Source: Actinocorallia sp. API 0066 (GTDB lineage Bacteria; Actinomycetota; Actinomycetes; Streptosporangiales; Streptosporangiaceae). Taken from it: a stretch of DNA of 64,000 nucleotides. The notes under the pieces are model-generated. The model searched no databases. It saw only the letters and a list, made by a program, of their open reading frames with translations, and was not told where the DNA came from. The stretch spans positions 1 through 64,000 of the forward strand of contig NZ_JAJLQY010000009.1 of NCBI RefSeq assembly GCF_020991275.1, in the 5' to 3' direction. Position 1 is the first letter of the stretch; each line of letters starts with the position of its first letter. This document shows, one piece after another, positions 22,798 to 25,565 of this stretch. The translations under genes and the position numbers were made by a program.

Positions 22798-22946
22798 GAA
22801 GTTCTCTCCTCGCGCCAGGGGCTACTCACGTGAGCTTATGTGGGGGTGACCACATCCAAGCGCGTGTCATGATCCACTTCTAGGGGCAAATGCACATCGC
22901 TTCCAGGAAAACCCGCGATTTCTTGCTCTTGCGCTACCCTTGGGGT

Positions 22947-22982
22947 ATGCGATCGTGGCTGCTTCTCAGTCAGCCGCGCTGA
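22947..22982 (+). CDS. leuS leader peptide (putative, 11 residues, three Leu codons)
   Basis: A short frame ATG...TGA encodes MRSWLLLSQPR, with CTG CTT CTC as three consecutive leucine codons, 150 bp upstream of leuS. A TACCCT -10-like hexamer at 22935-22940 would place the transcription start near the ATG, so the peptide may be translated from a leaderless mRNA. A terminator hairpin follows at 23035-23069. The segment around its stop, GCCGCGCTG (22973-22981), is complementary to CAGCGCGGC (23026-23034) next to the terminator. This is the layout of a ribosome-mediated attenuator sensing charged tRNA-Leu. Confidence 0.7.
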   Translation: MRSWLLLSQPR

Positions 22983-23034
22983 GATCGACCCCGAACCCCG
23001 CCGCGAGGCGCGCGTGATCGGCGACCAGCGCGGC

Positions 23035-23069
23035 AGCCCCTCCCTGTGTGAGGGGCTTCTTCATTGTTT
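23035..23069 (+). terminator. Attenuator terminator in the leuS leader
   Basis: AGCCCCTC (23035-23042) pairs with GAGGGGCT (23050-23057) around a 7-nt loop, followed by the T-rich TCTTCATTGTTT. It lies between the leader peptide and leuS, on the same strand, where a true gene end is absent. GGCTGC in the leader coding sequence (22957-22962) can pair with GCAGCC (23033-23038), which would disrupt this stem. Confidence 0.75.
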
Positions 23070-23096
23070 GAGGCAGCGAACCGGAAGAGGACCCCA

Positions 23097-25565
23097 GTGA
23101 GCGACGAAGAGCAGCAGTACGACCCCCGCGCCGTGCAGGACAAGTGGCAGGCCCGCTGGGCGGAGCTCGACACCTTCGCCGCCAGCGACGACCCCGCCGA
23201 CCCCCGCGAGCGCCGGTACGTGGTGGACATGTTCCCCTACCCGTCGGGCGACCTGCACATGGGACACGGCGAGGTCTTCGCGATCGGCGACGTGATCGCC
23301 AGGTACTGGTTCCACCGGGGGTACAACGTCCTGCACCCCATCGGGTGGGACTCCTTCGGGCTGCCCGCCGAGAACGCGGCGATCAAGCGCAACGCCCACC
23401 CGGCCGAGTGGACGTACGCCAACATCGAGACACAGGCCAACTCCTTCCGGCGCTACGGCATCTCCTTCGACTGGTCCCGGCGGCTGCACACCAGCGACCC
23501 CGAGTACTACCGGTGGAACCAGTGGCTGTTCACCCGGTTCTTCGAGCGCGGCCTGGCCTACCGCAAGGGCGGCCTGGTCAACTGGTGCCCGAACGACCAG
23601 ACGGTGCTGGCCAACGAGCAGGTCGTGGACGGCAAGTGCGAGCGGTGCCACGCCGTGGTCGTGCGGCGTGAACTGACCCAGTGGTACTTCAAGATCACCG
23701 ACTACGCGCAGCGGCTGCTGGACGACATGGACCAGATCGAGGGCGGCTGGTCCGACCGTGTGCTGACCATGCAGCGCAACTGGATCGGCCGCTCCGAGGG
23801 CGCCGACGTCACCTTCGAGATCGAAGGCCACGGGCCCGTCACCGTCTACACCACCCGGCCCGACACCCTGTACGGCGCGACGTTCTTCGTCGTCGCCGCC
23901 GACGCGCCGCTGGCCGAGCGGATCGTCGCCGCGGACCGGCGGGCCGCGCTGGACGCCTACCGGGCCGAGGTCGCCAAGCTGAGCGACATCGACCGGCTGT
24001 CCACCGAGAAGGAGAAGACCGGCGTCTTCCTGGGCGTGCACGCCGTCAACCCGGTGAACGGCGAGCGCATCCCCGTGTGGGCCGCCGACTACGTGCTGGC
24101 CGACTACGGGCACGGCGCCATCATGGCGGTGCCCGCGCACGACCAGCGCGACCTGGACTTCGCCCGCGCCCACGGCCTGCCCGTCAAGGTGGTGCTGGAG
24201 ACCGGCGCCGAGGACCCGAACACCACCGGCACCGCCACCCCCGGCGAGGGACGGCTGGTGAACTCCGGCCCGCTGGACGGGCTGGCCAAGACCGAGGCGA
24301 TCTCCGCGATCATCAGGATCCTGGAGGACAAGGGCCTGGGCCACGGCACCGTCAACTTCCGCCTGCGCGACTGGCTGCTGTCGCGCCAGCGGTTCTGGGG
24401 GACCCCGATCCCGATCATCCACTGCCCGGACTGCGGCGAGGTGCCCGTCCCGGACGAGGACCTGCCCGTCAAGCTGCCGGACGACCTGCGCGGCGCCGAC
24501 CTGGCGCCCAAGGGGGTCTCCCCGCTGGCGGCGGCGACCTCCTGGGTCAACGTGGACTGCCCCAAGTGCGGCGGCCCCGCCCAGCGCGACACCGACACCA
24601 TGGACACCTTCGTCGACTCCTCCTGGTACTTCCTGCGCTACACCTCCCCGCACTACACCGAGGGGCCGTTCGACCCCGCCAAGGTGAAGCAGTGGATGCC
24701 CGCCGACCAGTACATCGGCGGCATCGAGCACGCGGTCATGCACCTGCTGTACACCCGGTTCTTCACCAAGGTGCTGTACGACATGGGCCTGGTGGACTTC
24801 ACCGAGCCGTTCCGGCGGCTGCTGAACCAGGGCCAGGTGATCAACCAGGGCCGGGCGATGTCGAAGTCGCTGGGCAACGGGGTGGACCTGGGCCAGCAGA
24901 TCGACGACTTCGGCGTGGACGCCGTCCGGCTGACCATGCTGTTCGGCGGCCCGCCCGAGGACGACATCGACTGGGCCGACGTCTCCCCGGGCGCGTCGCA
25001 GAAGTTCCTGGCCCGCGCCTACCGCGTGATGACCGACGTGACGAGCGCGCCCGGCGTGGACTTCGCCACTGGTGACGTGGCGCTGCGCCGGTTCACCCAC
25101 CGGACCGTGGACGAGGTGACCCGGCTGGTCGAGGGGCACCGCTTCAACGTCGCCATCGCGCGGCTGATGGAGCTGACCTCCGCCGCCCGCAAGGCCATCG
25201 ACAGCGGCCCCGGCCCGGCCGACCCGGCCGTCCGCGAGGCGGCCGAGGCGCTGGCGATCATGCTGTCGGTGGCCACGCCCTACATCACCGAGGAGGGCTG
25301 GGAGAAGCTGGGCCACACCGGCGGCTCCATCGCCCGGGTGCCGTGGCCCGTCGCGGAGCCGGACCTGCTGGTGCTGGACTCGGTGACCTGTGTCGTCCAG
25401 GTCAAGGGCAAGGTCCGCGACCGGCTGGAGGTGGCGCCGGACATCGCCGAGGCCGAGCTGGAGAAGCTGGCGCTGACCTCGGAGAAGGTGCGGGCGGCCA
25501 TCGGCGACGCCGAGATCCGCAAGGTGATCGTGCGCGCGCCGAAGATCGTCAACATCGTCGTCTGA
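23097..25565 (+). CDS. leuS: Leucine-tRNA ligase
   Basis: An 822-aa class Ia aminoacyl-tRNA synthetase that charges tRNA-Leu. The HIGH-type signature is HMGH at residues 54-57 after MFPYPSGDL; the editing (CP1) domain with [12 protein letters not shown] and an [10 protein letters not shown] stretch follows; the KMSKS motif is AMSKSLGNG; a C-terminal anticodon-binding part ends with [11 protein letters not shown]. Zinc-like Cys pairs are present (NWCPNDQ/KCERCH and HCPDCG). I chose the GTG at 23097 with GGAAGAGG 7 bp upstream; a frame extension to 23064 would start inside the T-run of the attenuator. Expression is probably controlled by the leader described above. Confidence 0.97.

Follow-up and report, generated by a model that had tools for sequence, protein, structure and literature searches.

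A probable ribosome-mediated attenuator of unusually fixed layout upstream of leuS in Actinocorallia sp. API 0066 and related actinomycetes

How could the synthesis of leucyl-tRNA synthetase follow the supply of charged tRNA-Leu in an actinomycete such as Actinocorallia sp. API 0066, and does the short region ahead of leuS hold the means for it? The question was raised by a window of 64,000 nt (positions 1 to 64,000 of contig NZ_JAJLQY010000009.1, i.e., the whole stretch of DNA analysed) from a host genome of 7.0 Mb, whose closest named LeuS relative, among the 80 loci kept from a genome scan, is that of Actinocorallia populi (90% identity). The original prediction placed there a ribosome-mediated leucine attenuator, composed of an 11-codon frame with three consecutive Leu codons, an 8-bp terminator hairpin with a T-rich tail and leuS shortly downstream, together with two pairings that could give alternative folds. 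The features of the locus are the following:

22935..22940, forward strand: -10-like box TACCCT (TANNNT), with 6 nt between the end of the box and the leader ATG
22947..22982, forward strand: leader peptide ORF, MRSWLLLSQPR and stop (ATG 22947-22949, TGA 22980-22982), with related peptides elsewhere
22954..22978, forward strand: candidate hairpin H1 (22954-22961 with 22971-22978), from folding
22959..22967, forward strand: regulatory Leu codons CTG CTT CTC, read directly
22973..22981, forward strand: 5' arm of hairpin H2, GCCGCGCTG, beginning 5 nt past the last Leu codon
23026..23034, forward strand: 3' arm of H2, CAGCGCGGC, with no nucleotide between arm and terminator
23035..23057, forward strand: terminator hairpin of 8 bp with a loop of 7, from the terminator scan and comparison; arms AGCCCCTC (23035-23042) and GAGGGGCT (23050-23057)
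23058..23069, forward strand: T-rich terminator tail TCTTCATTGTTT, read directly and from the terminator scan
23083..23091, forward strand: probable Shine-Dalgarno sequence of leuS, GGAAGAGGA, read directly
23097..25565, forward strand: leuS, leucyl-tRNA synthetase of 822 aa with a GTG start (NCBIfam TIGR00396)

On direct reading of the sequence, the frame and its three Leu codons are found exactly where the original prediction had set them, as are the terminator and its tail, which the terminator scan picked out, and the start of leuS 28 nt past 23069 (GTG at 23097); the arms of H2 are complementary as claimed, and so are GGCTGC and GCAGCC. Two hallmarks of attenuation are thereby seen in the window, namely (i) a run of Leu codons within a short leader ORF, matching the leuS gene downstream, and (ii) an intrinsic terminator, predicted from sequence and covariation, lying between the leader ORF and leuS, with 114 nt from the leader stop to the leuS start. 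The product of the gene scores 949.7 bits against TIGR00396 (cut-off 548.4), and the terminator scan returned two overlapping sites at the leader (mean of 0.2 in shuffles). When folded, the leader of the window alone is only moderately unusual (z of -2.03; 7 of 200 shuffles fold equally well or better), so that the case is carried by comparative evidence.

For comparison, leuS loci were collected from 80 named contigs, 55 whole-genome loci and 60 further stretches, i.e., 195 loci in which some genomes are present twice, and were submitted to a detector requiring TANNNT and, 5-7 nt further on, a start codon that opens an ORF of 5-22 codons containing LL. A leader was found in 103 of the 195 loci, giving 100 distinct leaders, window included, once three duplicates were removed; expressed on the usable leuS upstream regions, this is 103 of 193, with LLL in 92. 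Among 2849 control segments, each of 480 nt and taken from these loci, three matched the detector and none with LLL, these segments not being limited to intergenic DNA, for which the rate might be somewhat higher. The original prediction had staked itself on relatives retaining the Leu codons and the terminator in their leuS leaders, and the comparison bears it out, the terminator accompanying the Leu codons in 98 of the 100 distinct leaders.

The spacing between the box and the start codon is 6 nt in 90 and 7 nt in 10 of the 100 distinct leaders (within the detector range of 5-7 nt), which is what a leaderless transcript would give. As the TACCCT box of the window ends 6 nt ahead of the ATG, the leader mRNA is probably leaderless, with transcription starting at the A of the ATG; the -10 box is recognised by comparison and the start deduced from that box. 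No sigma-70 promoter was found at the leader by a promoter scan, which demands a -35 box.

No leader was detected in the remaining 92 of the 195 loci, which include Nocardiopsis, Streptomonospora, Thermobifida, Kocuria and Microbispora, and these misses, those of Nocardiopsis and Streptomonospora among them, count against the attenuator explanation. Some of these loci carry a related peptide without LL, e.g., MRAILVLS in L056. The loci L019, L020, L024, L027, L030, L033, L034, L037, L044 and L045, all without a leader by the detector, are those of Thermobifida, Streptomonospora and Nocardiopsis and of one contig labelled Glycomyces fuscus. Two family members without a leuS leader, G008 and G010, do have a leader ahead of cimA. 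As for the gene downstream, the leader precedes two distinct types of LeuS (L136, L139, L142-L145, L311-L316 and the window): that of the window and that of L311 share 39% identity over 323 aligned positions, the latter having a long insert relative to the former. Since two enzyme types stand behind one kind of leader, the pairing of leader and gene may have changed by recombination, or the leader may have been kept while the LeuS type behind it was replaced by the other. At one locus (G025:C124, 24177-28088; L103, L143), a leader was found upstream of only the first of two neighbouring leuS genes, which differ in type and share a strand, possibly a single attenuator for two LeuS enzymes.

Of the 100 leaders, 84 end their Leu codons with CTT, 16 with CTC and none with CTG, against frequencies of 0.852 for CTG, 0.104 for CTC and 0.015 for CTT among 4731 Leu codons of the leuS genes (97 of the 100 loci, L098, L137 and L138 being skipped). 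The GAG isoacceptor is the one that reads CTC and CTT. Reduced to the 75 distinct peptides, the last codon is CTT in 60 and CTC in 16 peptide-codon combinations. According to the theory in the accessible part of PMC1183508, attenuation is sensitive only when certain synonymous codons are used, rarity alone being an oversimplified explanation of codon choice; an alternative is that the bases of the last Leu codon are constrained by the RNA.

Concerning the alternative folds, the original prediction was right in one half: H2 is conserved and covaries, and the pairing of GGCTGC with GCAGCC is not conserved. In a MAFFT alignment of 48 of the 98 leaders with a terminator, 98.1% of the H2 cells are paired and seven of the nine pairs have changed on both sides. 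For H2 and the terminator together, none of 500 shuffles reaches the observed value on any of five measures, a comparison inflated by relatedness; H2 partners slid out of place, a control free of that flaw, are paired in 41-54% of cells.

The position of H2 is as narrow as its pairing is constant. By folding, the spacer between the last Leu codon and H2 measures 5 nt in 58 of the 98 leaders, 4 nt in 29 of them and 8 nt in 6 (5, 4 and 3 nt in 58, 24 and 11 when H2 is extended outwards), and the gap between H2 and the terminator is 0, 1 and 2 nt in 75, 20 and 3 of them, only the stretch ahead of the terminator having been folded, so that an overlap could not show in these counts. A register search sets the 5' arm 5 nt past the last Leu codon in 93 of 98 leaders, a count that leans to 5 because each sequence was given its own register (within 3-7 and 0-4 nt) and ties went to 5 and 2; the 3' arm stops short of the terminator C-run by 2, 3 and 4 nt in 83, 10 and 5 leaders. 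With the register fixed, 86% of cells are paired in seven base pairs, against 24-55% off register; moving both arms by equal amounts leaves the pairing intact. An overlap of 2-3 nt between the longest terminator stem and the 3' arm of H2 is seen in 6 of the 98 leaders; the other 92, window included, have none. A conserved extension of H2 into the terminator was considered and rejected, all three outward pairs being possible in only two of the 98. Stop codons lie anywhere from 3 to 27 nt past the Leu run and the position of H2 hardly moves, the GCCGC arm covering the stop codon and what follows it in leaders such as MRAILLLS and stop; the Pro-Arg of the longer leader peptides is therefore most readily explained as a side effect of the RNA element.

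These comparisons, together with published Streptomyces elements, make leader-peptide attenuation of leuS, as originally proposed, the best reading. At a probability of roughly three in four, the locus would be a ribosome-mediated transcription attenuator in which H2 serves as antiterminator, the response to leucine being predicted from the sequence. When charged tRNA-Leu is plentiful, the ribosome would pass the Leu codons, reach the stop and mask or open the 5' arm of H2; the terminator would then form and transcription end. When charged tRNA-Leu is short, i.e., the isoacceptor for CTC and CTT, the ribosome would wait just upstream of H2 and leave it folded, and RNA polymerase would read through into leuS. 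How H2 would block the terminator is less certain. A terminator hairpin closes its base far inside the polymerase, which should leave no room for another helix immediately beside it. The near-zero gap between H2 and the terminator suggests just such an exclusion, mostly by adjacency, two helices with hardly a gap between them not fitting at the RNA exit of the polymerase.

The behaviour of H2 was followed by constrained folding of the 98 leaders with a simulated ribosome. H2 is present in all 98 without a ribosome, and again in all 98 when the A site holds the first Leu codon. At the second Leu codon, with 10 nt masked beyond the A site, it is mostly kept (94 of 98 with the lower stem above 0.5, mean of 0.58). 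At the third, masking 10 nt leaves it in none of the 98 and masking the 5-nt spacer alone in all 98. Once the A site reaches the stop codon, it is absent in all 98. In the simulation, a waiting ribosome can thus leave H2 and a finishing ribosome removes it, as an antiterminator would demand, and H2 is likely to be one. Folding with and without a stalled ribosome, proposed in the original prediction as a search for mutually exclusive stems, thus makes H2 depend on the simulated position of the ribosome and, at the third Leu codon, on the footprint assumed; in the minimum-energy fold of the window, with no ribosome, H2 and the terminator stand side by side. Given these coexisting folds, the extension possible in two of 98 leaders and the stem overlap in six, base-sharing cannot explain the exclusion in most leaders.

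Besides the detector misses and the coexisting folds, further points count against the attenuator explanation. A stall at the third Leu codon opens H2 if the ribosome covers 10 nt beyond the A site. Mutation of the regulatory codons of ilvB in S. coelicolor was reportedly without effect, as cited in the accessible part of PMC1262725. H2 forms without any ribosome in all 98 leaders, which would mean read-through by default, whereas in C. glutamicum, according to the part of PMC11857589 at hand, expression falls by 80% once the start codon of ilvL is lost. Default read-through could be repaired by H1, which in the folding model would keep the 5' arm of H2 occupied until its 3' arm has been transcribed, the comparative support for it being weak: in the truncated transcript of the window this arm is paired (mean p of 0.997), and across leaders it is paired above 0.5 in 87 of 98 (mean 0.75, against 0.75 with swapped arms and 0.65 in shuffles). 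As a conserved pairing between leader and H2 arm, H1 was rejected, the duplex energy being -11.22 kcal/mol for own arms and -11.29 for swapped ones, and folding being only slightly better than in shuffled leaders and no better than with swapped arms.

Other readings of the same elements have to be weighed against H2 as antiterminator. It is unlikely, but the most serious of them, that H2 instead promotes termination, or acts as a pause or translation-gating hairpin that keeps polymerase and ribosome in step or detains the ribosome at the last Leu codon, the true antiterminator being something else or absent. In favour of this reading are the coexistence of H2 and terminator in the free fold, the possible stacking of their abutting helices, and the distance of about 5 nt from codon to stem, which is near the spacing of frameshift-stimulating stems. 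Against it, no other conserved pairing was found for the 5' arm of the terminator (the duplex energy between leader and terminator arm being -5.59 kcal/mol for own and -5.81 for swapped arms), and a termination-promoting H2 would lower leuS under shortage of charged tRNA-Leu, contrary to expectation. A classical antiterminator with overlapping arms, in which GGCTGC (22957-22962) would capture the 5' arm of the terminator through GCAGCC (23033-23038), is very improbable: the pairing is present in the window and its close relative L083, but a complement of at least 5 nt between the leader ORF and the junction of H2 and terminator occurs in just 12 of 98 leaders, six of them of GCAGC type, and the bases needed lie under a ribosome stalled on the Leu codons. 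As a conserved switch, this pairing was rejected on those 12 leaders and on duplex energies not above arm-swapped controls. Little chance is likewise given to a leader that acts mainly after transcription, through reinitiation or mRNA stability, with the terminator as a constitutive dampener. Leader and leuS do lie near each other, and leader-ORF attenuators acting on translation in mycobacteria, reportedly described by Canestrari et al. in 2020, offer a precedent; the terminator, conserved in position and covarying between leader and leuS in 98 of 100 leaders, speaks against it.

How does the putative attenuator compare with known systems? Enterobacterial trp and his attenuators use overlapping arms. 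The leuS leaders share with them the principle of a race between ribosome and polymerase and differ by hairpins that mostly do not overlap and abut instead. A T-box riboswitch was discarded, the window giving no Rfam match at gathering score and none of the five weak matches in 22900-23110 being a T-box; at gathering score, no Rfam family was matched by the leader of the window, nor by those of L262, L311, L295 and L231. The leader belongs to an already known type of leuS attenuator, whose layout proves unusually fixed. This assignment follows from two reports on Streptomyces, as far as their accessible texts go, namely leuS attenuators predicted in S. coelicolor and S. avermitilis in 2005 (PMC1262725) and the leaderless leuS leader LeuL2, with peptide MRAVRLLLSEPR, derived from RNA-seq of S. 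lividans TK24 in 2021 (PMC8079986), and from the recurrence of the identical peptide in four fetched loci (L311, L312, L313 and L326), all of which match the covariance model R1 described below. In common with LeuL2 and the Streptomyces leuS leaders, the window has a leader that is inferred to be leaderless, a peptide ending in LLLSxPR and stop, a hairpin and a U-stretch ahead of leuS; in L311, the LeuL2 peptide precedes a LeuS of another type than that of the window.

By analogy, the closest experimental parallel is the three-hairpin attenuator of ilvBNC in C. glutamicum, which, in the accessible part of PMC11857589, starts one nucleotide from the leader start codon, keeps the order H1, H2 and terminator, and has an antiterminator and a terminator with adjacent bases. 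Its hairpins share a GCC trinucleotide, whereas the leuS leaders have an overlap of 2-3 nt in 6 of 98 and none in 92. The ilvB1 leader of M. tuberculosis, in what is available of PMC13236596, likewise combines branched-chain regulatory codons in a leader ORF with an intrinsic terminator; it differs by its gene and its codons, and mutually exclusive folds are proposed there. The LEU element, a pseudoknot whose base stem lies between Leu codons and the Shine-Dalgarno sequence (PMC1262725, same restriction), belongs to leuA, whereas the leader of the window belongs to leuS.

The design appears to extend beyond leuS. At E of at most 0.01, R1, built from leuS leaders only, has a match in 39 of 41 genomes (own and relatives); at E of at most 1e-4, it has one in 101 of the 196 genomes examined across the class. 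Some of the matches fetched and translated (20 and 39) precede other genes, namely (i) cimA, for citramalate synthase, with leaders such as MRSGLIIIGRRVG (L222: 645.9 bits against TIGR00977, cut-off 450), (ii) ilvB, with leader MNNERSILVLGQRTG (L221: 986 bits against NF005860, cut-off 881), and (iii) leuA, with leader MKHLLLIESARH (L295, G073: 620 bits against NF002086, cut-off 532) in the same layout of H2 and terminator. The regulatory codons fit the genes, with Ile codons for cimA and Leu codons for leuA. The leader MTNLLLT of L296 (G058) looks like that of L295. In the genome of Actinocorallia sp. API 0066 itself, cimA is preceded by a leader with Ile codons, MRTGSIIIGRRVG, in the H2-terminator layout (L262, L227; G000:C1:799136-799215; R1 E of 0.013), which from its codons is probably an isoleucine attenuator.

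Because matches to R1 are selected for leader geometry, ilvB and cimA were also surveyed starting from the genes. A leader with terminator was found at 21 of 30 ilvB and 24 of 30 cimA upstream regions, the detector missing 9 and 6 of them, giving some odd spacers and a few matches that look false (e.g., L240 and L282). The spacer is 4-5 nt in 14 of the 21 ilvB and 19 of the 24 cimA leaders, three cimA spacers of 1 arising from a run counted through a following Val, and the gap between H2 and terminator is 0 in 15 of 21 and 23 of 24, the stretch ahead of the terminator being folded. In 26 cimA leaders, 98.3% of the H2 cells are paired and four of the nine pairs have changed on both sides; the measure of further pair types lies below the shuffles (499 of 500 as high), an unfavourable result. 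Put together, actinomycetes might use one portable attenuator design for the branched-chain amino acid genes leuS, leuA, ilvB and cimA, with H2, left intact by a ribosome waiting at the last regulatory codon, antiterminating by adjacency, a tentative idea with the odds somewhat against it. Its order would be regulatory codons, about 5 nt, H2, 0-2 nt and terminator, and H2, sharing few or no bases with the abutting terminator, would sterically keep it open inside RNA polymerase.

In the accessible texts of the literature searched, no mention was found of the narrow class-wide geometry, of the invariant CTY codon, of a cimA leader attenuator as a member of the type, or of antitermination by a hairpin with little or no overlap. 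In the available part of PMC1262725, the mode of regulation of some actinobacterial leucine and cysteine operons is called unknown, other attenuator elements being missing, and the exact mode for ilvB is called unclear. The conserved H2 and its narrow distances provide a concrete candidate for the missing attenuator part, common to leuS, leuA, ilvB and cimA. If adjacency alone suffices, overlapping arms are no precondition for the evolution of an attenuator, and a search built on overlap would overlook those that lack it.
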